Shown here: one piece after another, positions 834 through 57,158 of the stretch
Layout: each line of letters begins with the position of its first letter
Position numbering within the stretch: the stretch's first letter is position 1
NCBI GenBank assembly: GCA_001650895.1
Contig: LXYH01000060.1
Span: forward strand, 1 to 61,174
Origin: Rhodobacteraceae bacterium EhC02
GTDB lineage: Bacteria > Pseudomonadota > Alphaproteobacteria > Rhodobacterales > Rhodobacteraceae
Reading direction: 5' to 3'
DNA length: 61,174 bases
The notes under the pieces: model-generated
Seen by the model: only the letters and a program-made list of their open reading frames with translations
Told to the model about the DNA's origin: nothing
Database searches by the model: none
Made by a program: the position numbers and the translations under genes

Positions 834-834
834 C

Positions 835-1752: not shown

Positions 1753-1822
1753 GTTTTCCGTCCGCTTGGGGTGAAGTTATCCCGTCCGCGCGCGATCGGC
1801 GCGGCAACGCAACAGGCAGGTT

Positions 1823-1848: not shown

Positions 1849-1858
1849 GGATCAGTGA

Positions 1859-3001: not shown

Positions 3002-3049
3002 CTTGTCTTTCCTCCGTGTTGGCCCCTTTGGGCTTTTGCTTTTTGTCGT

Positions 3050-40957: not shown

Positions 40958-41039
40958 GTGATTGGTCCCGGATATCCTGGAGAAAGCTCAGGCCGGTGCC
41001 GGGCACACCCGCAGGGTGCCGCACGACCGACCGAGGAGG

Positions 41040-41068
41040 CGCGGGCGACGATCAGGCCGCCGCCCGCG
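41040..41068 (-). other. Intercistronic hairpin between binding protein and fused permease genes
   Basis: CGCGGGCG (41040-41047) and CGCCCGCG (41061-41068) pair perfectly around a 13-base loop in the 127-base gap. A smaller stem, CACCC-GCA-GGGTG, lies at about 41006-41018. Neither has a U tract. Placement right after the binding-protein stop suggests mRNA 3' protection or attenuation. Confidence 0.45.
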
Positions 41069-41084
41069 ATCACGGCACGCCGGC

Positions 41085-42290
41085 TCAGTTGGCCGGGCGC
41101 AGTTTCATGACTTCTTCGTCGCTGGGCAGGTAATCGGCACCGTTCTTGTAGGTCCAGTCAACCATGACGCCCTTGCCGTCCTTCATGGCGATGGTGCCGA
41201 CAAAGGCCCCCATGGTCGCCTGATGGTCGATCGCGCGATAGGTGATAGGGCCCACGGGCGTGTCCAGTTCCAGCCCCTTGAAGGCCATCTTCAGCGCCTC
41301 GGTCTCGGTGCTGCCTGCCTTTTCCAGCGCCGCAGCGATGGATTGCACGGTCATGTAACCCACCAGCGAACCGATGCGGGGATAGTCGTTGTAGCGTGAC
41401 TGGTAGGCATCGACGAAAGCCTTGTTGGACGCATCCGTCACATCATACCAGGGATAGCCGGTCACGACCCAGCCCACCGGTGCCTCGTCGGCCAGCGGAT
41501 CGAGGTATTCGGGTTCGCCCGTCAGCATCCCGTAGACCGTGCGCCCGTCGAACAGGCCCCGCGTCGTGCCTTCGCGGACGAATTTCGCAAGGTCGGTACC
41601 GAAGGTCACGTTGAAGACGGCATCGGGCTTGGCGCGTTCCAGCGCCTGAACCTCGGCGCCCGCATCGATCTTGAACAGGGCGGGCCACTGCTCGGTCACG
41701 AATTCCACATCGGGCTTCAACTGGGCCAGCACGGTCTTGAAGGCTGCGACCGCTTCCTTGCCATAGGCATAGTTGGGCGCGATGGTCGCATAGCGGACCG
41801 CATCCGACTTGGCGGCCTCTTCGGCCAGCATCGCGGCCTGCATGTAGGTCGATGTGCGCAGGCGGAAGGTATAATCGTTGCCGCTGGCCCAGACGATGGA
41901 ATCCGCAAGCGGCTCGGACGCGAGATAGAGGTATTTCTTTTCCGCCGCCAGCGACGAGATCGCAAGACCCACGTTGCTGAGGATGGTGCCCGTCAGCATG
42001 ACCGCGCCATCGCGCGTCATCAGTTCCTCGGCGATCTTGATCGCCTCGCCCGGATCACCCTGATCGTCGCGGAAGATGAATTCCAGCGGCTTGCCCAGCA
42101 CGCCGCCTGCGGCGTTCACCTCTTCCAGCGCCAGCTCGATCCCCATCTTGTAGGGTTCGGCAAAGGCGGCCATCCGCTTGTAATGGTTGATCTCTCCGAT
42201 CTTGATCGTGTCCTGTGCGAGGGCGGGAAGACCCGCCACGGCAAGTGCTGCCGCACCCACCAGTCCTTTCAGAAACGTCTTGCGATGCAT
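41085..42290 (-). CDS. Liv-type ABC transporter substrate-binding protein
   Basis: A 401-residue periplasmic binding protein. The signal peptide MHRKTFLKGLVGAAALAVAG ends near ALA before QDTIKIGEINHYKRM. The mature protein shows LivK-type sequence such as GIELALEEVNAAGGVLGKPL and FRDDQGDPGEAIKIAEELMT. It lies 26 bases downstream of the Rieske oxygenase gene and upstream of the fused permease, so oxygenase and importer share one transcript. The ligand is therefore probably the aromatic acid attacked by the oxygenase or a relative; this is inference. Confidence 0.92.
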   Translation of the reverse strand: MHRKTFLKGLVGAAALAVAGLPALAQDTIKIGEINHYKRMAAFAEPYKMGIELALEEVNAAGGVLGKPLEFIFRDDQGDPGEAIKIAEELMTRDGAVMLTGTILSNVGLAISSLAAEKKYLYLASEPLADSIVWASGNDYTFRLRTSTYMQAAMLAEEAAKSDAVRYATIAPNYAYGKEAVAAFKTVLAQLKPDVEFVTEQWPALFKIDAGAEVQALERAKPDAVFNVTFGTDLAKFVREGTTRGLFDGRTVYGMLTGEPEYLDPLADEAPVGWVVTGYPWYDVTDASNKAFVDAYQSRYNDYPRIGSLVGYMTVQSIAAALEKAGSTETEALKMAFKGLELDTPVGPITYRAIDHQATMGAFVGTIAMKDGKGVMVDWTYKNGADYLPSDEEVMKLRPAN

Positions 42291-42316
42291 TGGGGTATCC
42301 TCTCTGTTGGGTGTCC

Positions 42317-43384
42317 TCAGTCGTGCTGGACGAAGGTTGGTCTTACAGGTTCTCCAAGGTCTTCAGTCGCCTCGGTTTCAATCAGGTCGCGTATCCGTTT
42401 CCGGTATACGTTCGGGCCTTTGTCGATGGCAATGCGGATGGGCTTGCGCTTTTGCGGGCGTTGTTCCTCGACATGGATCGCCTCGAGGATCTCCTTGTCC
42501 TCGGCAAAGGCGATGCGGAACATCGCGTCCATCTGCGCCGAGGCCGCATCATCGCCCACCGCCGCGTTGCGGATATGCATCCAGTGGTCGATCGTGTAAT
42601 CCTCGGTCACGGGGGTCACGAAATGCAGCGCGAAGATGCGCACGCCCTTCTGGCGGTCTTCCTCGGGCAGGTTCAGACTGGCATCGGCGCTGCCGAAATC
42701 GATCACCGCCGTGCTGGGCAGATGCAGATGGTAGTAATGCCAGCGATCGACATTGCCGGAAAACCCGCCGAACTTCTGAAAGAACCCCACCGGCGGCGCG
42801 TCGCGGATCCAGCGCCAGGCCGTGATCGCCTTGCCGCGCGTGCTGACATGGACGGGGACGTTTTCGGACGCCGAACTGCCCAGCGTCGTGGGATGCACGA
42901 AGCTGACATGCGCGGGATCGACAAGGTTTTCGGCCACGTTGAGGTAATTGGCCTTCAGGTGCAGCGCGTCGCCATGGTGCACATGCCAGGCCGGATCGCT
43001 GAATTCGGGCATGTCGAAGATGGTCGCAGGATCGGCGCGGTCGGGATCGCCCATCCAGACCCAGACGATGCCGTGGCGTTCCTCGACCGGGAAGGCATCG
43101 ACATAGGCGCTGGCGGGCAGATTGTCCTGCCCCGGCACACGCACGCAGGCACCGGTGCGATCGAAGGTCATGCCATGATAGCCACACTGGATCGTATCGC
43201 CGATCCGCTTGCCCTTCGACAGCGGCAACTGGCGGTGCGGGCAGCGATCCTCGAGCGCGACCAGCGCGCCATCGCTGGCGCGGAACATCACCATGGTTTC
43301 GTTGACGATCGTCAGCGCGCGCATCTCTGCGCCGAAATCATGCGACCATCCGGCCACATACCAGGCGTTTCTGACGAAAGGCAT
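42317..43384 (-). CDS. Rieske non-heme iron oxygenase, VanA-type single-component oxygenase subunit
   Basis: A 355-residue oxygenase. The Rieske cluster ligands are C48/H50 (CPHR) and C67/H70 (CGYHG). The mononuclear iron site is D156-x2-H159-x4-H164 in NLVDPAHVSFVHP. The sequence resembles vanillate O-demethylase and related ring-modifying monooxygenases. No VanB-like reductase is adjacent, so electrons may come from the GbcB-like reductase at 57159 or another reductase. It is the first gene of the operon with the Liv importer and lies behind a dyad at 43505-43522 whose minus strand contains a perfect TTGACA. Reaction and substrate are unknown; demethylation or ring hydroxylation is likely. 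Confidence 0.9.
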   Translation of the reverse strand: MPFVRNAWYVAGWSHDFGAEMRALTIVNETMVMFRASDGALVALEDRCPHRQLPLSKGKRIGDTIQCGYHGMTFDRTGACVRVPGQDNLPASAYVDAFPVEERHGIVWVWMGDPDRADPATIFDMPEFSDPAWHVHHGDALHLKANYLNVAENLVDPAHVSFVHPTTLGSSASENVPVHVSTRGKAITAWRWIRDAPPVGFFQKFGGFSGNVDRWHYYHLHLPSTAVIDFGSADASLNLPEEDRQKGVRIFALHFVTPVTEDYTIDHWMHIRNAAVGDDAASAQMDAMFRIAFAEDKEILEAIHVEEQRPQKRKPIRIAIDKGPNVYRKRIRDLIETEATEDLGEPVRPTFVQHD

Positions 43385-43522: not shown

Positions 43523-43637
43523 ATTTTTCACCCGAAACAGGAAATGGACCGCAGGCAGCTTTCGTGAAAGACTATAGTCTGCGGTGCAGGCACAACAGCC
43601 CGTGGCGCAAGGGTTCACCCCGCAGGAAAGACACCGG

Positions 43638-44066
43638 ATGGATATCGAGAATCGGGACAGGTCAGCCTATCGGCTGGAAGAGCAGATCGGCTTCAAGCTG
43701 CGCCTGGCCAACCAGAAGCATCTTGAGGTCTTTGCCCGCATGATGCCCGATGTCACGCCCACGCAATTCGCGGTCCTGGCCAAGCTGCTGGACGAGGACA
43801 CGATCTCGCAGAACCAGTTGGGTCGGCTTGTGGGCATGGATGCGGCCACGACCAAGGGCGTCGTGGATCGGCTGCGCGCCAAGGGGTTCGTGCGACGCAC
43901 CAAAAGCACCTCGGACATGCGGCGGCTGGATATCTCGCTGACGCCCGAGGGGCACGCCTTTGCCGCCCAGGCTGTCAGGACCGCAACCGAGATTTCCCAG
44001 GCGACGGCCGCGAACCTGACCCGGCGCGAAGTGGAACGGCTGCTGGACCTGCTGGACAAATTGTAA
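43638..44066 (+). CDS. MarR family transcriptional regulator of the heteroaromatic cluster
   Basis: A 142-residue MarR protein with HTH and wing segments SQNQLGRLVGMDAATTKGVV and RRTKSTSDMRRLDISLTPEG. The ATG at 43638 follows AGGAAAG at good spacing; an in-frame GTG at 43584 would add 18 residues and is less likely. It is transcribed divergently from the Rieske/importer operon across operator candidate 1 and convergently to the DUF1185 genes. Related dyads before the other catabolic operons suggest it controls the whole cluster, probably as a repressor released by a pathway acid or intermediate. That regulon is inferred. Confidence 0.9.
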   Translation: MDIENRDRSAYRLEEQIGFKLRLANQKHLEVFARMMPDVTPTQFAVLAKLLDEDTISQNQLGRLVGMDAATTKGVVDRLRAKGFVRRTKSTSDMRRLDISLTPEGHAFAAQAVRTATEISQATAANLTRREVERLLDLLDKL

Positions 44067-44137: not shown

Positions 44138-44722
44138 TCAGCGCAGCCCATCCTTGCCCTCGGCCTCGGCATGGGTCAGCCCGCCGACGCGCGGCAGCGG
44201 TCGGCCGCTGTCGGTGACGGCCACGGCGACCATGATCTCGCCCGCCCTCGGCGCATCGTTCAGCCGCACCTCGACCCCGTCGAAATGGCTGCGCACATAG
44301 GCCGCATCCTTGTGGCCCAGCGGCACGTCCAGCACCTGACCCGGCCCGCCCATCTTTTTCGACGAGGGGACCAGCGCCGCCCCCTTCTCAACAGCCACGC
44401 GCAGGGGCGCGCCCAGTTTGGGGTGCAGGATGGCGGCGGCATGTTCCAGCTCTCCGCCCTCGCCGACCATGGCGGCCTTGCCATAGCTTTGCGCCTGCGC
44501 AGGCTCGATGCCCAAAGCCGCGACGCAGCGCGCGCCCAACAGCCCGCCCAGTTCTGCACCAATCTCGATCAGCTCGGACAGATCTTCGGCATAGCGGCCC
44601 GCGAAGGGGTTGGCGATCACGGCAACCGCCACGGCCTTGCGGGTGGCGGGGGTGATGGGGCGGCCCATCTCGGTATGGGTTTCCTCGACCCAGACGGCCA
44701 GTTTGCGGATATCGGCGCTCAT
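44138..44722 (-). CDS. Amino acid synthesis (AA_synth/DUF1185) family protein, copy B
   Basis: A 194-residue protein of Pfam family AA_synth (DUF1185), whose biochemical role is not established. It shares with the preceding gene the motifs NPFAG-x-Y-x-ED, YGKAAMVGEGGELEH, VPSSKKMGG, and AAYVRSHFD followed by LNDAPRAGE. The many conserved polar residues (Lys, His, Asp, Arg) suggest an enzyme active site. It is the last gene of the six-gene hydroxylase operon and overlaps its paralogue by four bases. Tandem arrangement suggests a heteromeric complex or two consecutive steps on a pathway intermediate; this is inference. Confidence 0.88.
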   Translation of the reverse strand: MSADIRKLAVWVEETHTEMGRPITPATRKAVAVAVIANPFAGRYAEDLSELIEIGAELGGLLGARCVAALGIEPAQAQSYGKAAMVGEGGELEHAAAILHPKLGAPLRVAVEKGAALVPSSKKMGGPGQVLDVPLGHKDAAYVRSHFDGVEVRLNDAPRAGEIMVAVAVTDSGRPLPRVGGLTHAEAEGKDGLR

Positions 44723-45303
44723 CTCAGCCCGTCCCTTCCGGTGATCTTGTCGGCGGCCAGCCCGCCTGCGCGGTTATGGACACGCGGGCCCGTCGTCATG
44801 ACCAGCATCAGGGCCATTTCATCGGCGCGCGGCGCGTCGTTCAGGCCCAGTTCCATCGCATCGAAATGACTGCGCACATATGAGGCGTTGATATGGGTGA
44901 TCGGCACATCCAGCCGCGTGCCGACACCGCCCACCTTCTTGGTGGAGGGCACGATCGCCATGGCGTCGCCCAGCACCTCGCGCATGGCATAGCCGCCCGG
45001 CGCATGCCAGAGCGCGCCGTGTTCCAGCTCTCCCGCGGCACCGACGATGGCCCCCTTGCCATAACCTTCGATGACCGACGGATCACCGCCCAGCAGGTCC
45101 ACCAGCCGGTTGGCCATCATCAGGCCCAGCGGCTTGAGGTCTTCCATGAAGGGCTGGATGTCTTCGACATAGGACCCCGCGAAGGGATTGCGGATCACCG
45201 CGATCACCGCGGCGCGGCGCAGCGGTGTGGTGGCGCGGGGACCGCCTTCGTGAAAGACTTCCTCTACCACGCTGGCAAATTTGCGTATCTCGACCTCAGG
45301 CAT
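44719..45303 (-). CDS. Amino acid synthesis (AA_synth/DUF1185) family protein, copy A
   Basis: A 194-residue paralogue of the next gene, same length and same motif order: NPFAGSYVED, YGKGAIVGAAGELEHGALWH, VPSTKKVGGVGTRLDVPITH and ASYVRSHFD followed by LNDAPRADE. The start at ATG 45301-45303 overlaps the UPF0280 gene by eight bases; a longer upstream frame runs back through that gene and was rejected. Structures are known for relatives from Bordetella and Silicibacter (Ruegeria) pomeroyi, but function is open. Its fixed place in an N-heteroaromatic operon suggests a step in ring catabolism. Confidence 0.88.
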   Translation of the reverse strand: MPEVEIRKFASVVEEVFHEGGPRATTPLRRAAVIAVIRNPFAGSYVEDIQPFMEDLKPLGLMMANRLVDLLGGDPSVIEGYGKGAIVGAAGELEHGALWHAPGGYAMREVLGDAMAIVPSTKKVGGVGTRLDVPITHINASYVRSHFDAMELGLNDAPRADEMALMLVMTTGPRVHNRAGGLAADKITGRDGLR

Positions 45304-46162
45304 GCTGGAGGCTCCTTTCCTTGAGGGCCGTGGCCCCGTCTGCGAATTCTCCGACCGTGACGCCCTGACCTTGCAGGACCAGCGCGGCGGCGGCAATGGC
45401 ACCGGTGGCGATCATCGCCTGTGCGCGGGTGACCCCCTGCGACAAGGCGCGGGCGATGTCGGCGGGGGGCAGTGGCGCGACATCGGTCACGACCATGCGC
45501 GCGCCCAGATCGCTGTCAGGGAAGATGTCCCGCGCAGGGCGGCGGGTAATGGCGGGATGGCCCGGCAGATCGACCGCGTTGGCAATCAGCGTGGCGGCGG
45601 CATCCGCCGTGGCGGCATCGCGCGCCAGCACCGTGACCGAGGAGGCGATGCCAAGGCTGAGGCTGCGCCCGCCCTGCCCCGATGTGGCGATGCCGCCGAT
45701 CCCCTGCCCTGCATGGAGCGTGATCCGGCCTGCCAGTTGCCCGTCCAGCCCCGCAATTGCCGCGCGGTAGTCCGCGCCGGGTGCCAGATGCAGCGCGATA
45801 TCGCCGCCGTTGTTCACATGGGCGCGGGCAAGCGGCACGGCGGCCAGCATGGCGGCCAGCACCTCATCCGCGACCGATCCGGCGACGGCGGCCATAGGGG
45901 TGATGAAATCGCCCTGCGCCACGCCCATGCAGGCGCGGTGCATGCGGCGGGCGATCAATCCCTGCGGAACCCCGCCGAGGGGCGCGCGCAGCACCGGCAG
46001 TTCGGGGACAAGTTCATCAAGCACGGTGGCGAAACGGTCGCGCGCGGCGCGATAGGCTTTGCTGCGGGCGTCATCCTGCGCCTCGACCCCGATCACAAGG
46101 TCGATGGGGCCGTGTTGCAGATGCAACCGGCCATCGGCCAGAAGGGCCGCGACCGGCACCAT
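45296..46162 (-). CDS. UPF0280 (ApbE-like) family protein
   Basis: A 288-residue protein of family UPF0280, related in fold to the flavin transferase ApbE. The ApbE-like segment is AHVNNGGDIALHL, preceded by PMAAVAGSVADEVLAAM. The C-terminal half (SLSLGIASSVTVLARDAATA, then NAVDLPGHPAIT) also follows the family pattern. No signal peptide is seen, so it is cytoplasmic, unlike most ApbE. It overlaps the 6-hydroxynicotinate reductase-like gene by one base (TGATG) and the first DUF1185 gene by eight bases. A role in flavin attachment or flavin-dependent chemistry in this pathway is a guess from fold and context. Confidence 0.86.
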   Translation of the reverse strand: MVPVAALLADGRLHLQHGPIDLVIGVEAQDDARSKAYRAARDRFATVLDELVPELPVLRAPLGGVPQGLIARRMHRACMGVAQGDFITPMAAVAGSVADEVLAAMLAAVPLARAHVNNGGDIALHLAPGADYRAAIAGLDGQLAGRITLHAGQGIGGIATSGQGGRSLSLGIASSVTVLARDAATADAAATLIANAVDLPGHPAITRRPARDIFPDSDLGARMVVTDVAPLPPADIARALSQGVTRAQAMIATGAIAAAALVLQGQGVTVGEFADGATALKERSLQHA

Positions 46163-47673
46163 CAGCGCCTGCCCTTGCGGTCAGGCCGCCAGCGGTAGTT
46201 CTGCGGATCATGCGGGTCTGGCTGGCTGATGTTGGGCAAGAGCTTGCGGATCGCGGGGGTCAGGACCTCTTGGACCGGACGGACATGATCCACATGCCCG
46301 CCAAGTGCCGCGTAATCGGTCAGCCGCAGGGTGAATTCGATCGGAGCCACAAGCGCGGGTGTCGGCACATAACCGAAGGAATTGGTCGGCATGTCCATCA
46401 CATCGGCCATCACGGTGATGCCGCCACCGGGCCAGACATAGGCCTCTGCCCCGCCGCAGGACACGTAGGTCAGCGCATCCTTGACCGACCGGGTCAGCCG
46501 CACCGGGTTCTCGGTGACGCCCGCGCGCAAGCTGCCGCCCGCGCCGCCCATGAAGAGGACCGAGCAAAGCGAAGGTTCGCAGTTTTCCGCGATCCGTTCA
46601 GCCGTGGCCAGCAGCGGCGGCGTGATGTCGGCCGGTTGCGGGACAAGGTTTTCATCAAGGATGTAATAGGCCCATTGCTCCCCGGTGGTCGAGATCATCA
46701 GCAGGCGCAGGCCAGGCCATGCCAGTTTCGGATCGGCGGGCTTGAGGATGGTCAGCGGGTCTTCGACATTGGTGCCGCCCCAGCCGGTGCCGGGATCCGC
46801 CACCTGGAAATAGCGACCGGGCGTGGATTTGCGCCCCTTCACCTTGATGCCCGAAAGGCGCATGTCGAGGCCCTTGCCGGCCTCGTGTTCGCTGAGCACG
46901 CCAGTGATATGGTCATCGACGACCACCACCTCGTCGACATGGCCGTGCCATTGCTTGGCGAACATGCCGATGGTGGCCGAGCCACAGCCCACACGCATCA
47001 GCTTTTCCGGCACACCGTTGATGATGGGCGCATGGCCCGCCTGCACCACGATGGTCACGCCCTCGTCGATCTGCATTTCCACGGCTTCGCGGTTGCACAG
47101 GCGCATCAGCGCGTCGCAGGTCACGCGGCCTTCTTTCTTCGAGCCGCCCGTCAGGTGTTCCACCCCGCCCAGCGACAGCATCTTGGAGCCGTATTCGGCG
47201 GTCATCACATGACCGATCGCCTCGCCTTCCACACGCACAATCGCGCGCTCATGCCCGATGTGGCGGTCGGTGTCGATCTTCACCTTGACGCCGCAATAGC
47301 TGAAGATGCCCTCGGTCACGACGGTGACCATGTCGACGCCCTCGACCTGCTGGCTGACGATGAAGGGGGCGGGTTTGTAATCGGGATAGGTGGTGCCCGC
47401 GCCCACGGCAGTCACGAAGGTGCGGTTGCCCTGGATCACGTCGCCATCCCAGTCCTGGGCATTCTCGCCCTGGTCCAGAAAGGCCACGGCCTGCGCACCG
47501 CCCTGGATCACGGTCAGGGGATCAAGGCGCACCAACTCGCCGCCATGGTTGGCGTAACGGTCGCAGGCGCCAGCCTTGCCATCGGCGATGTAGCACATCA
47601 CCGGGCAGGCATCGCAGCGGATTTTCTCGGCGGCCGCGCTGGCCACGGTATCGGGCGCGTTGTCGTCAGGCAT
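46162..47673 (-). CDS. 6-hydroxynicotinate reductase-like Fe-S protein
   Basis: A 503-residue protein resembling 6-hydroxynicotinate reductase, the ferredoxin-dependent enzyme that reduces 6-hydroxynicotinate to 1,4,5,6-tetrahydro-6-oxonicotinate. The N-terminus has a cluster motif C20-x2-C23-x3-C27-x9-C37 (CDACPVMC...GACDRY) expected to bind [4Fe-4S]. Later conserved segments include GIFSYCGVKVKIDTDRHIGH and QAGHAPIINGVPEKLMRVGC. The ATG (47671-47673) follows GGAGG and overlaps the hydroxylase gene by eight bases. Reduced ferredoxin could come from the Fpr-like protein at 51372. Assignment is by recalled sequence resemblance and context; the true substrate may be a different pyridine. Confidence 0.78.
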   Translation of the reverse strand: MPDDNAPDTVASAAAEKIRCDACPVMCYIADGKAGACDRYANHGGELVRLDPLTVIQGGAQAVAFLDQGENAQDWDGDVIQGNRTFVTAVGAGTTYPDYKPAPFIVSQQVEGVDMVTVVTEGIFSYCGVKVKIDTDRHIGHERAIVRVEGEAIGHVMTAEYGSKMLSLGGVEHLTGGSKKEGRVTCDALMRLCNREAVEMQIDEGVTIVVQAGHAPIINGVPEKLMRVGCGSATIGMFAKQWHGHVDEVVVVDDHITGVLSEHEAGKGLDMRLSGIKVKGRKSTPGRYFQVADPGTGWGGTNVEDPLTILKPADPKLAWPGLRLLMISTTGEQWAYYILDENLVPQPADITPPLLATAERIAENCEPSLCSVLFMGGAGGSLRAGVTENPVRLTRSVKDALTYVSCGGAEAYVWPGGGITVMADVMDMPTNSFGYVPTPALVAPIEFTLRLTDYAALGGHVDHVRPVQEVLTPAIRKLLPNISQPDPHDPQNYRWRPDRKGRR

Positions 47674-50416
47674 GTCCGGCCTCCTTCAGCGCGGCGCGCA
47701 CCCTTGCAGGGGTGGCGGGCAGGCGTGTGATCCGCGCACCGGTGGCATGCGCGATGGCGTTGAGGATCGCGGGCGCGGTGGGGATCAGCACATGTTCACC
47801 CAGGCCCTTGGCCCCGTAAGGGCCATGGGCATCGGGCACCTCGACGATCAGGGTTTCGATGGGGGGCACGTCGCCGATGGTGGGGATCAGGTAGTCGTGC
47901 AGGTTCTCTGTCCGGTGGGGGATGTATTCCTCCATCAGCGCCATGCCGAGGCCCTGTGCAATGCCACCATGGACCTGCCCCTCGACCAGGAGCGGATTGA
48001 TCGCCTGCCCCACATCATGGGCCGCGACGAAGCGCAGCGGACGCACCCGGCCAAGGGGGATATCCACCTCGACCACCACCAGATGGGCGGCATAGCCGTA
48101 TTGCGCATAGGGTTCGCCCTGCCCGTTCTTGTCGAGCGGCTTGGTGGGGGGATCGTAGGTCTCGGCCACCTCCAGCACATAGCCTGCGGGGTTCGGGGAA
48201 AGCCGCGCCAGATCGAGGGTGAAGGTCTGCGCGCCATCGGTGACGGTCAGCCCTGCGGTATCAAGGGTGATCACCGCATCGGGGCTGGCGTTGACCTGCC
48301 CAAGAACGGCCTTGCGCAGCGCCTCGCCCGCGAGGCGCGCGGCGTTGCCGGTCACGAAGGTCTGGCGGCTGGCCGAGGTCTTGCCCGCGTCGGGTGTCAG
48401 GTCGGTATCGGCCCCGATCAGCGCGATGTCATGCACCGGCACGCCGAAGGCGCGGGCGAAGATCTGCGGGATCACGGTGTTGGACCCCTGCCCGATATCC
48501 ATCGCGCCCTGGTGCAGCACGACGGTGCCATCGGCGCGCAGACCCGCCCGGATGGTCGAGGGGTTGGGCATCGAGGTATTGCCGCAGCCATACCAGCCTG
48601 CCGCGACCCCCACACCGCGCTTGCGGGTGGCATGCGCGACGTTGAAGGTGTCGCAATCGGCCTGCGCCGCAGCCCATGCGGGGCGCAGCGCCTCAAGGCA
48701 GGGTTTGACGCCGACGCCCTGCGCAAAGACCTGTCCGCAGACGGTCGGCACACCGTTGTCGAGGGCATTGAGGATGCGGAATTCCAGCGCATCCATCCCC
48801 AGACGGGCGGCCAGCATGTCGAAAAGGCTTTCCTGCGCCACCGCCGATTGAGGCACGCCAAAGCCGCGAAACGCGCCTGCGGGCACACAGTTGGTGTTCA
48901 CCGCCCGTGTTGTGGCGCGGTAATCGGCCACCCGGTAGGGACCCGAGGCATGGACCGGCACGCGGTTGGCGACGGTCGGCCCCCACGAAGCATAGGCCCC
49001 GGTGTTGAAGTCCCCGTCGAAGGTCATGCCGCAGAGCCGCCCGTCGCGGCTGGCCCCGATCCGCATGGAAATGGCGGCCGGATGGCGCTTGGTGGTGGAT
49101 TGCATGGTCTCGACGCGTTCATAGGTCATGCGCACGGCACGGCCTGTCCTGATCGCGGCCAGCGCCAGGAAGGGTTGCAGCGACACGTCGATCTTGGAGC
49201 CGAAGCCACCGCCCACCGCCGTGGGCACGATGCGGATACGCTCGCGCGGCAGGGCGAGGATCTGCATCAGCGCATCCTGGTCCATCACCGGGGCCTGGGT
49301 ACAGGCCTGCACCACGACGCGGTCACCGTCCATCATGGCGAAACCGGCCTCGGGTTCGATATAGCCATGTTCCACGAAGACGGTGGTGAACTGCCCCTCG
49401 ACCGTGACATCGGCGCGGGCCAGTGCCGCCTCGGCATCGCCGCAGGCGACATGGCCGCCGCACATGATGTTGTGCGCGCGCCCCGGATGCAGTTGCGCCG
49501 CACCGGGGGCGAGAGCGTCCTCGACCTCCATCAGCGGGGGGCGCGGCTCCCATGTCACGGGGAAATCGGCGGGATCGAAACGGGCCATGGTGGCGGCATC
49601 GCCCACGACGGCGGCCACCGCATCGCCCCGGAAAAGCACGTGATCCACGGCAAAGACGGGCTGATCGATGAAGCCGGGGATCACGCCGAAGGCATTGAGA
49701 CCCGGCACATCGGCCGCTGTCAGCACCGCGACGATACCGGGATTGGCCGCGCGGAAACCATCGAGATCGCCGAAGGTGAAACCCGCATGGGCATGGGGCG
49801 AACGGATCACCCGCAGCACCAGCGCATCGGGCGGGGCGACATCGTCGCCGAAAGCCTCAGTGCCGGTGACCTTGGGCAGACCGTCCAGCCGGCGGATCGT
49901 GGTGCCGACATCGCCCGAGCCTTCCGGCGCGGGCGCATGCCCTGCCCCGGCCTCGACCACCGCATCGATGATCTTGCGATAGCCGGTGCAGCGGCACAGC
50001 ACCCCGCCCAGCGCGTCCTGTACCTGTGCGGCATCGGGCGCGGATTGCGCGCGCAGCAGCGCCACGGCGGACACCATCATGCCCGGCGTACAGATACCGC
50101 ATTGCGCGGCCTGATGCGCCTGAAAGCTGTTCACCAGCCTGTCGGCATGCGGATCGGCCTTGACCAGACCGGTCAGCGTTTCGACCTTTGCGCCCGCGGC
50201 CTGTTGCACCGGCATCAGGCAGGCGCAGACCGGCGCACCATCGACCAGCACCGTGCAGGCCCCGCAATCGCCCGCGTTGCAGCCGATCTTGACGTCCTTG
50301 GCCCCCAGCCTTTCACGCAGGGCATGGGACAGGCGCTCGCCGGGGTCGGCTGCGACCTCGACCACCTGGCCATTCAGGTGAAAGGCGGTCAGATCCGGTG
50401 CGGTCCGCTTATCCAT
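47666..50416 (-). CDS. Molybdenum hydroxylase, fused [2Fe-2S] and Mo-binding subunits (nicotinate dehydrogenase/xanthine dehydrogenase family)
   Basis: A 916-residue fusion. Residues about 1-160 hold two [2Fe-2S] motifs (GCNAGDCGACTVLVDG and QCGICTPGMM followed by LCRCTGYRKI). The rest is the molybdopterin subunit, with VEGQFTTVFVEHGYIEPEAG, GAFRGFGVPQSAVAQESLFD and the C-terminal active-site segment GAKGLGEHVLIPTAPAI carrying the catalytic glutamate. Such enzymes hydroxylate N-heteroaromatic rings next to nitrogen using water. Together with the FAD subunit upstream (eight-base overlap) and the 6-hydroxynicotinate reductase-like gene downstream, nicotinate or a relative is the likely substrate. 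Normally the FeS and Mo subunits are separate, so the fusion is notable. Confidence 0.9.
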   Translation of the reverse strand: MDKRTAPDLTAFHLNGQVVEVAADPGERLSHALRERLGAKDVKIGCNAGDCGACTVLVDGAPVCACLMPVQQAAGAKVETLTGLVKADPHADRLVNSFQAHQAAQCGICTPGMMVSAVALLRAQSAPDAAQVQDALGGVLCRCTGYRKIIDAVVEAGAGHAPAPEGSGDVGTTIRRLDGLPKVTGTEAFGDDVAPPDALVLRVIRSPHAHAGFTFGDLDGFRAANPGIVAVLTAADVPGLNAFGVIPGFIDQPVFAVDHVLFRGDAVAAVVGDAATMARFDPADFPVTWEPRPPLMEVEDALAPGAAQLHPGRAHNIMCGGHVACGDAEAALARADVTVEGQFTTVFVEHGYIEPEAGFAMMDGDRVVVQACTQAPVMDQDALMQILALPRERIRIVPTAVGGGFGSKIDVSLQPFLALAAIRTGRAVRMTYERVETMQSTTKRHPAAISMRIGASRDGRLCGMTFDGDFNTGAYASWGPTVANRVPVHASGPYRVADYRATTRAVNTNCVPAGAFRGFGVPQSAVAQESLFDMLAARLGMDALEFRILNALDNGVPTVCGQVFAQGVGVKPCLEALRPAWAAAQADCDTFNVAHATRKRGVGVAAGWYGCGNTSMPNPSTIRAGLRADGTVVLHQGAMDIGQGSNTVIPQIFARAFGVPVHDIALIGADTDLTPDAGKTSASRQTFVTGNAARLAGEALRKAVLGQVNASPDAVITLDTAGLTVTDGAQTFTLDLARLSPNPAGYVLEVAETYDPPTKPLDKNGQGEPYAQYGYAAHLVVVEVDIPLGRVRPLRFVAAHDVGQAINPLLVEGQVHGGIAQGLGMALMEEYIPHRTENLHDYLIPTIGDVPPIETLIVEVPDAHGPYGAKGLGEHVLIPTAPAILNAIAHATGARITRLPATPARVRAALKEAGHA

Positions 50417-51269
50417 GGGATTGTCCCCCCTGCTCTATCGCCATGTGGAGCGCGCGGGCGCAAAGCGTCGACGCGGCCTCCATCCGGTAGTCGGCGCTGC
50501 CGCGCACATCGCCGATGGGCGCCAGCGGCGCAAGGTGCGCAGGCAGGATCACGCCCGCACCTGCGGCCAGCACATCTGCGGCGCTGCGACCTGTCAGGTC
50601 TGCCTCGAGCGCGGGAAGACGTTGCGCGGTGGCGGAACAGGACCCAACAGCCACCGCCGCCTGTACGATCCGCCCCCGATCCAGCGTGACAAGGGCCGCG
50701 ACCATGGCGATCGAGATGACCAGATAGTGCCGCGCCCCCAGTTTCAGGAAAGTCCCCTGCGCGCCGACAGGCAGATCGGGGATGATCAGCGCGGTCAGCA
50801 CCTCGCCCGGCATGCGCGCGGTCTGGCGCGGACCTTTCAGGAATTCGGACAGGCCCATGCGCCGGATGCCACGGGTCGAGGCCAGTTCGACCACCGCGCC
50901 CAGCGTCAGAAGTGGCGGCACGCCATCGGCGGCGGGCGAGGCATTGCAAAGGTTGCCCGCCACGGTGCCCGCGTTCTGGATCTGGATCGATCCCACCTCG
51001 CGCGCGGCCGCCTTGATCCCGTCGAAGGCCGGGGGCAGATCGGCGCGGATCAGGTCCGTCCACGTGGTGGCCCCGCCAATGCGCCAGCCGCCCGCGTCCT
51101 GCGTGATCCCGCGCAGCCCCGGCACGCGGGTGATATCGACCAGATCCCCCTTCAGAGGACGCGACCCCTGCGCGGGGAACCAGTCGGTCCCGCCCGCGAT
51201 CACCGCGGCATCAGGACGGCCCAGCGCATCCAGCGCCTCGGACAATGATGCGGCAACAAGATATCCCAT
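50409..51269 (-). CDS. Molybdenum hydroxylase FAD-binding subunit
   Basis: A 286-residue FAD subunit of the CO/xanthine dehydrogenase medium-chain family. FAD motifs are AVIAGGTDWFP near residue 25 and NAGTVAGNLCNASPAADGVP near residue 100. The ATG at 51267-51269 (MGYLVAASLSEALDALGRPD) is preceded by GGGGAAG and fits the family start. A GTG 18 codons upstream would overlap the operator candidate at 51314 and was rejected. It is the first gene of a six-gene operon (FAD subunit, FeS-Mo subunit, reductase, UPF0280, two DUF1185). It passes electrons from the Mo enzyme to an acceptor. Confidence 0.9.
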   Translation of the reverse strand: MGYLVAASLSEALDALGRPDAAVIAGGTDWFPAQGSRPLKGDLVDITRVPGLRGITQDAGGWRIGGATTWTDLIRADLPPAFDGIKAAAREVGSIQIQNAGTVAGNLCNASPAADGVPPLLTLGAVVELASTRGIRRMGLSEFLKGPRQTARMPGEVLTALIIPDLPVGAQGTFLKLGARHYLVISIAMVAALVTLDRGRIVQAAVAVGSCSATAQRLPALEADLTGRSAADVLAAGAGVILPAHLAPLAPIGDVRGSADYRMEAASTLCARALHMAIEQGGQSHG

Positions 51270-51313
51270 CGCAGCTTCCCCGTTGTCTGCCGCCTTTGCG
51301 GGCGGTCTGAATT

Positions 51314-51331
51314 TTGTTTGCACACGAATAA
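51314..51331. promoter_or_regulatory. MarR-type operator candidate 2 (hydroxylase operon)
   Basis: TTGTTTG-CACA-CGAATAA, a weaker copy of the cluster dyad, 45-62 bases upstream of the FAD-subunit start. The left half-site is near-perfect and the right is degenerate. Position suits repression of the six-gene hydroxylase operon. Confidence 0.5.
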
Positions 51332-51371
51332 GAAATCGGCACAGCCCCGGCTGTCAAATCAAATGTGAGGA

Positions 51372-52181
51372 TCAGCCCACGAAAGCACGTTCGACCACGA
51401 AGGTTGCCGGCATGCTGTTCGACCCTTCGACAAGCCCGAAGCCTTCCAGTGCCGCCTTGGTATCGCGCAGCATCGCCATCGAGCCGCAGATCATCCCGCG
51501 ATCAGTGGCCGGATCGATGGGCGGCAGGCCAAGATCGGTGAAGATCTGACCCGACGCCATCAGGTCGGTCTGCCGCCCCATCCGCGCCGTGGCCTCGCGC
51601 GTGGTCGTGGCGTAATGGATCAGGCCGCCCGCCATCTCGCCCACCAGCGGATCGGCGCGCAGGTCGCGGACCAGATCCTGCCCGTAGGTCAGCTCGGCCG
51701 CGTCCCTGCAGGTATGGCACAGGATGACCTGTTCGAATTTCTCGTAGGTCTCGGGATCGCGTATCAGGCTGGCGAAAGGTGCGATGCCGGTGCCGGTGGC
51801 GAACATGTAGACCCGCTTGCCGGGCAGCAGCGCATCCAGAACCAGCGTGCCGGTGGGCTTTTTCTTCATCAGCACCGTATCGCCCACTTTGATCTTTTGC
51901 AGATGTTCGGTCAGCGGGCCGCCGGGGACCTTGATCGAATAGAACTCGATCTCTTCATCCCAGGCGGGCGAGGCGATGGAATAGGCGCGCATCACCGGCT
52001 TGGCGGCATTGGGCAGGCCGATCATCACGAACTCGCCCGACCGGAACCGGAAGGACGCCGGGCGCGTGATGCGGAAGCGGAACAGCCGGTCGGTGTAATG
52101 CTGCACCTCGGTCACGGTTTCGGCAAACATGCCTTCGGGGACGGGAAAGGCGGCGGTCTGGGGGATTTCGGTCAGGGACAT
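51372..52181 (-). CDS. fpr: Ferredoxin-NADP reductase
   Basis: A 269-residue bacterial Fpr-type flavoprotein. FAD-binding RAYSIASPAWDEEIEFYSIK and NADP-binding GKRVYMFATGTGIAPFASLI are visible, with the C-terminal GSNSMPATFVVERAFVG typical of this class. It moves electrons between NADPH and ferredoxin. Its place beside the 6-hydroxynicotinate reductase-like operon suggests it supplies reduced ferredoxin for ring reduction. The start (ATG 52179-52181) has a GGAGG site; an in-frame GTG-type upstream start would add 15 unconserved residues. It is divergent from the enamidase gene with two operator candidates in between. Confidence 0.93.
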   Translation of the reverse strand: MSLTEIPQTAAFPVPEGMFAETVTEVQHYTDRLFRFRITRPASFRFRSGEFVMIGLPNAAKPVMRAYSIASPAWDEEIEFYSIKVPGGPLTEHLQKIKVGDTVLMKKKPTGTLVLDALLPGKRVYMFATGTGIAPFASLIRDPETYEKFEQVILCHTCRDAAELTYGQDLVRDLRADPLVGEMAGGLIHYATTTREATARMGRQTDLMASGQIFTDLGLPPIDPATDRGMICGSMAMLRDTKAALEGFGLVEGSNSMPATFVVERAFVG

Positions 52182-52212
52182 GGGGCCTCCGGCTGACGGA
52201 TCGATTTTCTTT

Positions 52213-52230
52213 TTGTTAGTATACAAACAA
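52213..52230. promoter_or_regulatory. MarR-type operator candidate 3 (fpr/enamidase)
   Basis: TTGTTAG-TATA-CAAACAA, with half-sites identical to candidate 1. It lies 32 bases upstream of the fpr start codon and contains TATACT on the minus strand, which could be the fpr -10 box. Confidence 0.7.
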
Positions 52231-52292
52231 ATAACCTGTCAACGGCCTTGGTATGGCACCTGCAAGCTGCCCTCTTGATCGGTGCAAGGTTT

Positions 52293-52310
52293 CTGTTAGC
52301 GTTCTAACAA
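52293..52310. promoter_or_regulatory. MarR-type operator candidate 4 (enamidase)
   Basis: CTGTTAG-CGTT-CTAACAA, a near-perfect dyad 20 bases upstream of the enamidase ATG and about 60 bases from candidate 3. It probably overlaps the transcription start region of the enamidase gene. Confidence 0.65.
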
Positions 52311-52329
52311 GTCAGAAGAGAGGGAACCC

Positions 52330-53529
52330 ATGGCAGACGCAACCGCCCCGACGCTTGATGCGACCCACAAGCTTGTCATCCGCAACATCGGCCTGATCCT
52401 GTCCGGCAAGATCGAACAGCCCATTCTGGACGGCGATTGCCTGATCGCGGTGGGTGGAAAGATCACCGGCTGGGGCCACGAGAAGGACATGGACACCGAG
52501 GGCGCCGACACGCTGATCGACGCCAATGGCTGTACGCTTTGCCCCGGCCTGATCGACAGCCATGTGCATCCCGTGGTGGGCGATTACACGCCACGGCAAC
52601 AGCAGTTGCACTGGATCGATTCGACGCTGCATGGCGGGGTCACGACGCTGATCTCGGCGGGTGAGGTGCATATGCCGGGACGGCCCAAGGATATCGTGGG
52701 TCTGAAGGCGATGGCGATCGCCTCGCAGCGCTGGTACGAGAATTTCCGCCCCTCGGGCGTCAAGGTACATGCAGGTGCGCCCGTGATCGAACACGGCATG
52801 GTCGAAGAGGATTTCGCCGATCTGGCAAAGGCGGGCGTCAAGCTGCTGGGCGAGGTGGGGCTGGGCACCGTCAAGGACGGCAAGACCGCGCGGCAGATGG
52901 TGGACTGGGCGCGCAAATACGGCATCCAGAGCACGATCCACACCGGCGGGCCATCGATCCCCGGATCGGGGCTGATCGACGCCGACATGGTGCTGGAGAC
53001 CGGCACCGATGTGGTGGGTCATATCAACGGCGGCCATTCCGCCCTGCCCGACGACCAGATCATCTGCCTGTGCGAAGGCTGCAAGGCGGGGCTTGAGATC
53101 GTGCACAACGGCAACGAGCGCGCGGCCCTTCTGACGCTGAACACCACACGCGAGCTGGGCAAGCTGGATCAGGTGATCCTTGGCACCGATGGACCGGCCG
53201 GGTCAGGGGTGCAGCCACTGGGCATCCTGCGGATGATCGCCATGCTGTCGAGCCTGGGCAATGTGCCCGCCGAGGTGGCCTTCTGCTTCGGGACGGGCAA
53301 CACCACGCGGATGCGCGAACTGGACACCGGCATGATCGAGGCCGGGCTTTGCGCCGATTTCGTGCTGATGGACCAGGCGCAGCACGCGCCGGGCAAGACG
53401 ATCCTGGAGTCGGTGCAACTGGGCAACCTGCCCGGCGTGGGCATGACCATCATCGACGGGCGCGTGACCAGCCAGCGCAGCCGCAACACGCCCCCGGCCG
53501 GCCGCATCCCCGAAGTCGTGAAGAGCTGA
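52330..53529 (+). CDS. Enamidase (amidohydrolase superfamily)
   Basis: A 399-residue metal-dependent amidohydrolase closely resembling enamidase, which opens 1,4,5,6-tetrahydro-6-oxonicotinate to 2-formylglutarate and ammonia. The metal motif H78-x-H80 is in DSHVHPVVGDYTPRQ. Other expected ligands are visible in GEVGLGTVKDG, TIHTGG, HINGGHSA and GTDGPAGSG. The segment GEVHMPGRPKDIVGLKAMAI is characteristic of this subgroup. It starts at ATG 52330 after GAGAGGGA. It is divergent from fpr and would act directly after the 6-hydroxynicotinate reductase-like enzyme. Context and motifs agree, though activity on a substituted ring is possible. Confidence 0.87.
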   Translation: MADATAPTLDATHKLVIRNIGLILSGKIEQPILDGDCLIAVGGKITGWGHEKDMDTEGADTLIDANGCTLCPGLIDSHVHPVVGDYTPRQQQLHWIDSTLHGGVTTLISAGEVHMPGRPKDIVGLKAMAIASQRWYENFRPSGVKVHAGAPVIEHGMVEEDFADLAKAGVKLLGEVGLGTVKDGKTARQMVDWARKYGIQSTIHTGGPSIPGSGLIDADMVLETGTDVVGHINGGHSALPDDQIICLCEGCKAGLEIVHNGNERAALLTLNTTRELGKLDQVILGTDGPAGSGVQPLGILRMIAMLSSLGNVPAEVAFCFGTGNTTRMRELDTGMIEAGLCADFVLMDQAQHAPGKTILESVQLGNLPGVGMTIIDGRVTSQRSRNTPPAGRIPEVVKS

Positions 53530-53743: not shown

Positions 53744-53788
53744 GCGCGGTTCGCGCGGCCCATCCACGTGATTCCGACGGAGCCCCCG

Positions 53789-55837
53789 ATGACCCAGACC
53801 GCCACCAAGGACCCCTTGCTGCAACCTTACCAGCTGGGCCATCTGACCCTGAAGAACCGGATCATGACCACCAGTCACGAACCGGCCTATCCCGAGGACG
53901 GGATGCCCAAGGACCGCTATCGCGCCTATCACGAAACCCGCGCCCGCGCGGGTGTGGCGCTGACCATGACGGCGGGTTCGGCGGCGGTGTCGCGCAACTC
54001 GCCGCCCGTGTTCAACAACGTGCTGGCCTACAAGGACGAGGTGGTGCCATGGATGCGCAACATCGCGGATGCCTGCCATGCACATGACTGCGCCGTGATG
54101 ATCCAGTTGACGCATCTGGGGCGCCGCACCCATTGGGCCAAGGGCGACTGGTTGCCCGTCGTGGCACCCGGCCCCTTCCGCGAGCCCGCGCACCGTGCCT
54201 TTCCCAAGATCATCGAGGATCACGAGATCGACCGCATCATCCAGGATTACGCCGATGCCGCCGAAAGGATGCAGGCAGCGGGCCTCGATGGGGTTGAATT
54301 CGAATGCTACGGCCACCTGATGGACCAGTTCATGTCGCCGCTGACCAATGTGCTGGATGCCCCCTGGGGTGGCGGGCTGGAGAATCGCGCACGTTTCGCG
54401 CTGGAGGTTTACCGCGCCTGCCGCAAGCGCGTGGGCAACCGTTTCCTGCTGGGAATGCGCTATGTCGCCGATGAGGCGGCAGAGGGCGGCATTGCCACCG
54501 ATGAGGGGATCGCCATTGGACATATGTTCAAGGAGGCGGGCGTCGATTTCCTGAACGTGATCCGAGGCCAGATCCATACCGATGCGGCGCTGACCGATGT
54601 GATCCCGGTGCAGGGGATGCGATCCGCGCCCCATCTGGATTTCGCGGGCCGCATCCGTGCCGAGGTGGGCCTGCCCACCTTCCATGCCGCGCGCATCCCC
54701 GATGTGGCGACGGCGCGCCATGCCGTGGCCTCGGGGCAGCTGGACATGGTGGGGATGACCCGCGCCCACATGGCCGATCCGCTGATCGTGACCAAGATCA
54801 TCGAAGGCCGCGAGGAAGACATTCGGCCTTGCGTCGGCGCGAACTACTGCCTGGACCGGATCTATCAGGCGGGGGATGCGCTGTGCACCCATAACGCCGC
54901 CACGGGCCGCGAACTGAGCATGCCGCAGGACGACATGATCGCGCCCGCGCCCGTGCAAAAGCACGTGGTCGTGGTGGGCGCCGGGCCCGCGGGGCTTGAG
55001 GCCGCGCGCGTCGCCGCCATGCGCGGTCACAGGGTCACGGTGTTCGAGGCGGCCCCCGATGCCGGCGGCCAGTTGCGTCTGGCCGCGCAATCGGCGCGGC
55101 GGCGCGAGATGATCGGGATCATCGACTGGCGCATGGCGCAATGTGCCGCGCGCGAGGTGACCTTCCACTTCAACACCTATGCCGAAGCCTCTGACATCAT
55201 GGCGCAAAGCCCGGATGTCGTGATCGTGGCAACGGGCGGCATGCCGCACACCGAGGTGCTGGAGGATGGCAATGACCTGGTGGTGTCGTCCTGGGATATC
55301 ATCGCGGGCGATGTGAAACCGGGTGCCCGCGTCCTGGTCTATGACGATGCGGGCGACCATGCGGCCCTGCAGGCCGCCGAGGTTATCGCGGGCAGCGGTG
55401 CCCATGTCGAGGTGATGACCCCCGACCGCAGCTTTGCCCCCGATGTGATGGCGATGAACCTGGTGCCCTACATGCGCAGCCTGCAGGACAAGGATGTCCG
55501 CTTTACAGTGACTTACAGGCTGAAGGCGGTGCAGAAGAATGGCAATCAGCTTAGCGCGGTCATCGGCACGGACTATTCCAGCCACCGCGAGACACGGGAT
55601 TTCGACCAGATCGTCGTCAACCACGGCACCCTGCCGCTGGACGAGCTGTATTTCGATCTGAAACCGCAATCGGCCAACAAGGGCGCGGTGGATCAGGATG
55701 CCTTGATCGCCGGGCGCGCGCAGCCCTGGCAGGCCGCGCAGGATCAGTTCGTTCTCTACCGCATCGGCGATGCGGTGGCCGCCCGCAACACCCATGCCGC
55801 GATCTACGATGCGCTGCGTCTGGTCAAGGACATCTGA
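53789..55837 (+). CDS. NADH:flavin oxidoreductase-type N-demethylase (StcD/HpbA/DgcA-like)
   Basis: A 682-residue enzyme of the trimethylamine dehydrogenase/2,4-dienoyl-CoA reductase family. The N-terminal TIM barrel (about residues 1-365) includes KNRIMTTSHEPAYPEDGMPK and MIQLTHLGRRTHW. A reduced cluster region follows (CVGANYCLDRIYQAGDALCT), with three cysteines rather than the usual four. The C-terminal FAD/NAD part starts VVVVGAGPAGLEAARVAAMR. This matches enzymes that remove N-methyl groups from N-methylproline or dimethylglycine. The ATG at 53789 follows GGAG; a GTG seven codons upstream is less likely. With the following Rieske pair it forms a betaine demethylation set. Confidence 0.86.
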   Translation: MTQTATKDPLLQPYQLGHLTLKNRIMTTSHEPAYPEDGMPKDRYRAYHETRARAGVALTMTAGSAAVSRNSPPVFNNVLAYKDEVVPWMRNIADACHAHDCAVMIQLTHLGRRTHWAKGDWLPVVAPGPFREPAHRAFPKIIEDHEIDRIIQDYADAAERMQAAGLDGVEFECYGHLMDQFMSPLTNVLDAPWGGGLENRARFALEVYRACRKRVGNRFLLGMRYVADEAAEGGIATDEGIAIGHMFKEAGVDFLNVIRGQIHTDAALTDVIPVQGMRSAPHLDFAGRIRAEVGLPTFHAARIPDVATARHAVASGQLDMVGMTRAHMADPLIVTKIIEGREEDIRPCVGANYCLDRIYQAGDALCTHNAATGRELSMPQDDMIAPAPVQKHVVVVGAGPAGLEAARVAAMRGHRVTVFEAAPDAGGQLRLAAQSARRREMIGIIDWRMAQCAAREVTFHFNTYAEASDIMAQSPDVVIVATGGMPHTEVLEDGNDLVVSSWDIIAGDVKPGARVLVYDDAGDHAALQAAEVIAGSGAHVEVMTPDRSFAPDVMAMNLVPYMRSLQDKDVRFTVTYRLKAVQKNGNQLSAVIGTDYSSHRETRDFDQIVVNHGTLPLDELYFDLKPQSANKGAVDQDALIAGRAQPWQAAQDQFVLYRIGDAVAARNTHAAIYDALRLVKDI

Positions 55838-55906
55838 CCATGCAGGGTAGAAATCACTTGCCTTTGATCAACCATAACCCTCCATCCCTCCCATAGGATC
55901 ACTGTC

Positions 55907-57154: not shown

Positions 57155-57158
57155 GCCG

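Follow-up and report, generated by a model that had tools for sequence, protein, structure and literature searches.

What does a bacterium do with an operon that packs a member of the 6-hydroxynicotinate reductase (Hnr) family between a molybdenum hydroxylase and genes of two orphan families, UPF0280 and DUF1185? We address this question for bases 1-61174 of contig C60 from a 4.09 Mb genome, the whole stretch of DNA analysed here, which we call the window. We propose, with a probability of roughly 0.8, that the window holds a cluster for aerobic, reductive nicotinate catabolism of the type found in Azorhizobium and Bradyrhizobium. This estimate is for the pathway only and excludes the new roles suggested below for UPF0280 and DUF1185, which are much less supported. 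The pathway itself is already known; it appears here as a variant, and with it come two testable assignments for orphan protein families.

The cluster is real, and its gene set lies far beyond chance, since it recurs among relatives: in 77 of 80 of their loci (the 80 retained from 270 Hnr relatives in the genome collection) Hnr is accompanied by UPF0280 and one or more DUF1185 genes, and in the three exceptions the contig stops shortly after hnr. The closest named relatives at this locus in a search of the genome collection are Rhodobacterales, so we took the class to be Alphaproteobacteria and surveyed 385 genomes of that class. Hnr was found in 68 of them, so this type of ring reduction is widespread in such bacteria. 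Variation was followed in a long-locus set (n = 81), chosen partly for the absence of DUF1185, so that its fractions are not frequencies, and in a short-locus set (n = 57, window included) from genome searches; residue conservation was read from an alignment of 28 Hnr proteins and, at the 95% level, from 45 UPF0280 proteins.

A preliminary description of this DNA had suggested a reductive nicotinate route and had left three genes (two DUF1185, one UPF0280) as unexplained extras. The route is supported by the match of the amidohydrolase to the solved enamidase 2vun, the identity of Hnr to its homologues, the BpsR-related MarR regulator and the published clusters (PMC3511419), whereas the view of the three genes as extras does not stand. 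The genes of the cluster and its immediate surroundings are as follows (E, expectation value):

37625-42290, minus strand: branched-chain-amino-acid-type ATP-binding cassette (ABC) importer, with two ATPases, a 620-residue permease protein and a binding protein (Pfam)
42317-43384, minus strand: VanA-type Rieske oxygenase (VanA_C and Rieske domains)
43584-44066, plus strand: MarR regulator related to BpsR (matches to 2nnn and 6pcp/6pco)
44138-44722, minus strand: DUF1185 protein b (PF06684, E 1.3e-70; 2qtp, E 5.2e-102)
44719-45303, minus strand: DUF1185 protein a, with the ATG at 45303 favoured as its start instead of the listed GTG (45402) (PF06684, E 1.1e-71)
45296-46162, minus strand: UPF0280 (COG2122) protein with a predicted ApbE fold (NF003322, 367 bits; cut-off 290)
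46162-47673, minus strand: Hnr family protein with eight invariant cysteines (homologues, annotation, alignment)
47666-50416, minus strand: probable nicotinate hydroxylase, fused [2Fe-2S] and molybdopterin subunit (Fer2, Fer2_2, Ald_Xan_dh_C, MoCoBD_1 and MoCoBD_2; Pfam)
50409-51323, minus strand: flavin adenine dinucleotide (FAD) subunit of the hydroxylase (FAD_binding_5 and CO_deh_flav_C; Pfam)
51372-52226, minus strand: Fpr-type ferredoxin-NADP reductase (NF008178, 128 bits, under the cut-off of 390)
52330-53529, plus strand: enamidase, a ring-opening amidohydrolase (2vun, E 1.9e-107 over the whole length)

A candidate route from nicotinate

Seven tightly packed genes run along the minus strand from 44138 to 52226, encoding Fpr, the FAD subunit, the FeS-Mo fusion, the Hnr-like protein, UPF0280, DUF1185a and DUF1185b. 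Neighbours overlap by 1-8 bases across the six genes from DUF1185b through the FAD gene, with DUF1185a counted from the ATG at 45303; the listed start of this open reading frame is too early, and a start codon scan finds AGGAAAGGAGCC before the ATG. The FAD and Fpr genes are 48 bases apart, the enamidase-like gene diverges from the operon with its start at 52330 on the plus strand, and the MarR gene (43584-44066, plus strand) sits between the operon and the VanA-type Rieske gene with the ABC importer (37625-43384, minus strand). Every gene named in the preliminary description is present at the place it was given.

We propose that the molybdenum hydroxylase would convert nicotinate to 6-hydroxynicotinate, that Hnr would reduce this to 1,4,5,6-tetrahydro-6-oxonicotinate with electrons probably supplied by NADPH via Fpr, and that the enamidase would open the tetrahydro-6-oxonicotinate ring to yield 2-formylglutarate and ammonia. 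The flavin of Hnr would be installed or held by UPF0280 as an ApbE-fold maturase, DUF1185 would take 2-formylglutarate to glutarate semialdehyde, which would go onward via glutarate, and the MarR protein would sense 6-hydroxynicotinate. Of this scheme, gene content, homology, co-occurrence and fold are observed; the substrate, the electron path, the ligand and both new roles we infer.

The molybdopterin part of the fusion matches the two halves of E. barkeri nicotinate dehydrogenase (3hrd_A at 251 bits, 3hrd_B at 214 bits), although its best single-chain match is 4-hydroxybenzoyl-CoA reductase (332 bits); the FeS-Mo fusion is a probable nicotinate hydroxylase. The long loci carry either the FeS-Mo fusion (47 of 81) or a NicB-type gene (30), with neither in four and both in none. 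Fpr possibly supplies electrons to Hnr. One locus, L149, has genes for a 2-oxoacid:ferredoxin oxidoreductase-like protein, a thiamine pyrophosphate protein and a pyridine-nucleotide oxidoreductase (734-5037) upstream of its hydroxylase and Hnr genes. These could be an alternative electron source, which would fit if ring reduction calls for low-potential electrons; in the window Fpr may provide them. The cluster also bears on how aerobes supply electrons for the reduction of N-heteroaromatic rings.

In the Hnr protein the cysteine motif is exactly C-x2-C-x3-C-x9-C (C19, C22, C26, C36), as had been read from the sequence before, and together with C126, C185, C229 and C364 these cysteines are invariant in 28 of 28 aligned proteins; the eight would fit two [4Fe-4S] clusters. 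Identity to the 80 kept homologues is 68-96%, those of Afipia and Bradyrhizobium standing at about 70%, and 17 of 26 plasmid records with an Hnr match are annotated as 6-hydroxynicotinate reductase. The SG-6C Hnr is reported to be 42% identical to that of E. barkeri (PMC3511419). Searches up to E 10 gave no sequence match in the PDB and a single chance-level match in Pfam, and PHROGs gave none; an AlphaFold model from 28 sequences reached a mean predicted local distance difference test (pLDDT) score of 53.8, with its best PDB match at E 0.19, and we conclude nothing from it. In one surveyed genome (G028, C1 2969817-2971219) the Hnr match falls into two pieces that differ in frame, possibly through a frameshift or sequencing error, and UPF0280 still follows.

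For the ring-opening step, the match of the amidohydrolase to E. barkeri enamidase (2vun) spans its full length at E 1.9e-107; this is the comparison with the characterised protein that had been proposed as a check. The stretches DSHVH, GEVGLG, HTGG, HINGG and GTDGPAG, which we take to be metal-ligand motifs, differ little or not at all between the two. It is 71-77% identical to proteins of Bradyrhizobium, Afipia and Chelatococcus. An unrooted tree of 36 rows places 2vun between the clade of nicotinate-cluster enamidases and seven paralogs linked to DUF1185, with 41-48% identity to members of both clades among the rows printed.

The MarR protein offers a pointer to the substrate. Its best match is 2nnn (E 1.5e-27), followed by BpsR (6pcp/6pco, E 1.8e-18), in which Tyr15, His23, Arg26 and His32 are reported as the residues for the ligand 6-hydroxynicotinate (PMC6837509). 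By residue spacing, the window protein has Y29, F37, R40 and H46 at the corresponding places, so that three of four residues are kept and His23 is replaced by Phe37; the pattern Y-[FYH]-R-H recurs in 73 of 79 readable MarR homologues of the fetched loci (80 matches, one unreadable). NicR of P. putida is said not to keep the BpsR ligand residues (PMC6837509). A role for the MarR protein as a 6-hydroxynicotinate sensor is possible on these residues, and they point to nicotinate over picolinate as the substrate.

Bradyrhizobiaceae strain SG-6C, to which the Afipia and Bradyrhizobium among the kept loci are related, is reported to grow on nicotinate and 6-hydroxynicotinate, and a cluster of its type, including a transporter and two uncharacterised proteins, to be conserved in A. 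caulinodans, B. japonicum and R. palustris HaA2 (PMC3511419). Like the window, these clusters combine Hnr, the first three steps, an ABC transporter and conserved unknowns on a route through tetrahydro-6-oxonicotinate. The window differs in its hydroxylase, an FeS-Mo fusion with an FAD subunit where the Bradyrhizobium and Afipia loci that are long enough carry a NicB-type gene, in its added VanA-type Rieske gene, and in having two DUF1185 genes where most Bradyrhizobium loci have one. E. barkeri, which ferments 2-formylglutarate further, shares the hydroxylase, Hnr and enamidase families in its nicotinate fermentation, although its molybdenum enzyme is split over two subunits (3hrd_A, 3hrd_B) while the molybdenum part in the window lies within one fusion. 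Its ring opening is reported to give (S)-2-formylglutarate (PMC9304392). The window holds no gene for 2-formylglutarate metabolism, the genome not having been searched for E. barkeri-type genes or a glutarate route; this is expected, because the nicotinate route of A. caulinodans is reported to continue via glutarate (PMC3511419).

UPF0280 and DUF1185 beside Hnr

UPF0280 and DUF1185 had been taken for additions peculiar to this bacterium, a view contradicted by the searched genomes, across which both families accompany Hnr or enamidase. The UPF0280 model matched 74 of the 385 genomes, 65 of them above the cut-off, and 68 of the 74 are exactly the 68 Hnr genomes (three of these lie below the cut-off as split or cut pieces). 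The other six matches have no Hnr, reach E 4.6e-7 or worse and are all below the cut-off; with these set aside, UPF0280 occurs in none of the 317 genomes without Hnr. The gene lies directly downstream of Hnr on the same strand in 67 of 68 genomes, the 68th having the two on different contigs. In all 57 short loci UPF0280 likewise comes after Hnr, both on one strand, with a MarR gene between them in L142. Of the 77 relatives' loci that have it, 71 carry it immediately after hnr, and the other six have it some 4 kb upstream, again on the hnr strand. A rearranged order, with UPF0280 and DUF1185b upstream of the FAD, FeS-Mo and hnr genes, is seen in L046, L049, L052, L056, L066 and L073. All three Hnr genomes found beyond the class carry UPF0280 as well. 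UPF0280 is also present elsewhere in the absence of Hnr: its model matches two methanogens, below the cut-off.

The structure model of the window's UPF0280 protein is confident (mean pLDDT 91.5), and its best 39 PDB matches are all either 2o34, itself a UPF0280 protein, or ApbE, FmnB and Ftp proteins, at E 3.4e-11 to 8.5e-3. Template-modelling scores on the query are modest, 0.56 for 2o34 and 0.31-0.52 for the others. The modelled fold is that of the ApbE flavin transferases, while in sequence UPF0280 matches PF02424 at only E 0.09; no PF02424 ApbE is encoded in the genome from which the window comes. Its TSG and AD-x-AAT motifs, which are conserved in UPF0280, are taken, by motif only, as counterparts of the ApbE serine and aspartate. 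Since E. barkeri Hnr reportedly carries a covalent flavin, a role in maturation is the simplest reading, and UPF0280 is most likely, on the modelled fold, a cytosolic ApbE-fold maturase that helps to install or hold the flavin of Hnr.

COG2122 is reported to be needed together with DUF39 in homocysteine synthesis (PMC5764234), and a broader role for UPF0280 is therefore possible. In that pathway of D. vulgaris and methanogens, much as we propose for Hnr, UPF0280 is needed with an enzyme that uses an iron-sulfur protein; the enzyme partner differs, and the pathway makes homocysteine rather than reducing a ring (PMC5764234). With Hnr, the orphan family COG2122 gains another partner in addition to DUF39, one that can be tested directly.

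DUF1185 is tied more to ring opening than to ring reduction. DUF1185b is very close to R. pomeroyi SPO0826 (PDB 2qtp, E 5.2e-102), and the family scores above the cut-off in 81 genomes, namely 59 of the 68 Hnr genomes and 22 others. Every one of the 31 genomes whose enamidase is close (at least 65% identity) has DUF1185, and 30 of them have Hnr; the distance from DUF1185 to the close enamidase gene is within 600 bp in only nine of the 31. Among 15 enamidase paralogs that are more distant (36-42% identity), seven have DUF1185 at most 110 bp away and the other eight do not; three of the seven are in Hnr-free genomes (G060, G202, G306). Two DUF1185 genes occur in 50 of 77 relatives' loci and one in 27, most Bradyrhizobium among the latter.

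Locus L162 (7525-12102) has genes for an HpaB-type monooxygenase, DUF1185, an enamidase paralog and an amidase in this order, and is a candidate for another N-heterocycle pathway. DUF1185 also stands beside a distant enamidase paralog in L161 and L163-L167. Another DUF1185 operon encodes an alpha/beta hydrolase, a luciferase-type monooxygenase and an aldehyde dehydrogenase, which we take to resemble the trigonelline operon. One genome, G082 (L173, L174), has homologues of the close enamidase and DUF1185b with no match for Hnr or UPF0280.

We propose that DUF1185 most likely acts at or just after ring opening and, by analogy, decarboxylates 2-formylglutarate to glutarate semialdehyde. The A. 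caulinodans route goes via glutarate, so 2-formylglutarate must lose CO2, and it is for this step that we propose DUF1185 as the decarboxylase. Trigonelline breakdown would need the same decarboxylation chemistry one carbon shorter, on 2-formylsuccinate. The tgn pathway of Acinetobacter baylyi cleaves its ring oxygenolytically and is not known to have an Hnr or an enamidase. Its DUF1185 protein TgnF belongs, as the proposed decarboxylase would, to the end of an N-heterocycle pathway at which a semialdehyde is formed (cited in PMC7913881). Glu90, His93 and Arg176 are reported as cavity residues of the DUF1185 protein BB2672 (PMC2954203); both window copies have presumed Glu-His-Arg equivalents, at positions that match between the two copies, and many invariant arginines, lysines and histidines. 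The linkage of DUF1185 to enamidase offers a concrete candidate reaction for the family.

The ring opener itself varies. Among the 81 long loci, 52 have enamidase, 12 have HyuAB in its place, 17 have neither and none has both, and DUF1185 is missing from five of the 12 HyuAB loci and from none of the 52 enamidase loci. In whole-genome searches of five HyuAB-type genomes, with matches for both positive controls, three gave no enamidase match and two only 28% matches at E 1e-4 or worse; G289, also a HyuAB-type genome, has a 37% enamidase paralog elsewhere. HyuA and HyuB (oxoprolinase/hydantoinase) genes were seen in enamidase-free Hnr clusters at L083 5531-9270 and L086 15653-19446, and likewise in those of L040, L041, L042, L145, L146, L147, L149, L150, L152, L154 and L155. 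L083 also carries, at 1-4812 near its Sagittula cluster, genes for a CoA transferase, an FAH-family protein, prpB (methylisocitrate lyase) and a PrpF-family protein; the downstream enzymes of E. barkeri are of PrpF and lyase type.

Weighing the readings

A number of observations speak against the scheme as drawn. Fpr is present in only 33 of the 81 long loci, and the replacement of enamidase by HyuAB in 12 of them means that ring opening is not uniform. The 2nnn protein, the best match of the MarR regulator, has a tyrosine where BpsR has His32. UPF0280 is not adjacent to hnr in six of 77 loci, and although it has the fold and the Ser/Asp-type motifs of ApbE, FmnB and Ftp in common, no histidine is conserved at 95% or more in the 45 proteins (His13 reaches 90%), where V. 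cholerae ApbE is reported to use His257 as its catalytic residue (PMC12052999). The core [ST]GA[ST] of the ApbE target D-x-x-[ST]-G-A-[ST] occurs in none of the 28 Hnr proteins. With both the catalytic histidine and the target motif in Hnr missing, canonical ApbE chemistry for UPF0280 was rejected. Nine of the 68 Hnr genomes are without DUF1185, which rules out DUF1185 as an obligate part of ring reduction. For HcdD, the DUF1185 protein of a coumarin pathway, attempts to see an effect are said to have failed (PMC7913881), and this pathway has no evident need for such a decarboxylation, so that HcdD misfits the proposal.

UPF0280 might be a sulfur or iron-sulfur assembly partner rather than a flavin-handling protein, as proposed for COG2122 in methanogens. 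In homocysteine synthesis COG2122 is reported to act alongside DUF39 and NIL/ferredoxin proteins, and its ApbE homology to stop short of the flavin-binding region (PMC5764234); MA1715 has been termed a sulfur trafficking protein (PMC12068725), and Hnr has its eight invariant cysteines. We nevertheless find this doubtful, as no cysteine reaches 95% in the 45 UPF0280 proteins, which makes a persulfide carrier unlikely in this subfamily, and the remaining folds matched by the UPF0280 model are flavin transferases. Occurrence in the same genomes and near-constant adjacency would suit a structural subunit of Hnr as well as a maturase, yet this is unlikely given that the modelled fold is that of a modifying enzyme and that the E. 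barkeri Hnr was reportedly purified and described as a single enzyme. For DUF1185, isomerisation of a lactol or enol, or assistance to the semialdehyde dehydrogenase, is a tentative alternative to decarboxylation: stimulation of succinate semialdehyde oxidation has been reported for TgnF (cited in PMC7913881) and the DUF1185 fold is described as chorismate-mutase-like (PMC2954203), whereas the linkage to enamidase outside the nicotinate cluster fits a step on the ring-opening product, without singling out decarboxylation. A literature search, mostly short of full texts, found no link by name between Hnr and UPF0280, DUF1185 or HyuAB. That all parts of a more specific scheme hold jointly seems improbable to us, namely UPF0280 as an Hnr-dedicated maturase attaching a covalent flavin by non-ApbE chemistry, DUF1185 as a new 2-formyl-dicarboxylate decarboxylase for nicotinate and trigonelline, and a HyuAB-type, ATP-dependent hydrolase that opens the ring instead in some members of the clade.

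The substrate could also be another pyridine carboxylate, such as picolinate after homarine demethylation, in which case ring reduction and opening by enamidase would lead to 2-oxoadipate and no formylglutarate genes would be needed. This would explain the missing 2-formylglutarate genes, and a VanA-type demethylase-like oxygenase and betaine-type Rieske genes do lie beside the cluster. We consider it very unlikely, in view of the identity of Hnr (about 70%) and enamidase (71-77%) to the Bradyrhizobium, Afipia and Chelatococcus proteins, the BpsR-like ligand residues in MarR, and a molybdenum subunit that resembles nicotinate dehydrogenase. A literature search short of full texts found no gene-level description for homarine or picolinate. 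The MarR and homology evidence favours nicotinate.

Flanking genes

Genes around the nicotinate cluster may feed it. The ABC importer probably takes up nicotinate or a precursor: a livK-like gene is present in 52 of 80 relatives' loci, and the published cluster is reported to include a putative nicotinate ABC transporter (PMC3511419). The 620-residue permease (39095-40957, minus strand) has two BPD_transp_2 stretches, and some relatives match it in two separate pieces. The best solved relatives of the VanA-type Rieske protein are DdmC (E 1e-41), 7qwt (E 1.5e-37) and NdmA (E 1.8e-22), and its gene is present in 16 of the 80 loci; the oxygenase is a candidate demethylase through which N-methylnicotinate (trigonelline), or a precursor like it, would enter the pathway.

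Downstream of the enamidase gene, at 53768-58232 on the plus strand, lie genes for an Old Yellow Enzyme (OYE)-type, StcD-like flavoprotein, a Stc2-like Rieske protein and a GbcB-like reductase, which probably form a proline-betaine demethylation module beside the nicotinate cluster. That they instead belong to the nicotinate pathway, as a trigonelline demethylase module, is improbable: the four closest relatives (L003-L006) have the module too and L032 has a GbcA/GbcB pair beside the cluster, but most of the 80 loci lack it (oye in four, gbcA in five), and 3vca, which we take to be a stachydrine demethylase, is a very close match to the Rieske protein (E 1.3e-163). A TetR regulator gene follows the demethylation module at 58233-58895, and two M20-family amidohydrolase/peptidase genes with overlapping open reading frames occupy 58985-61155 on the minus strand.

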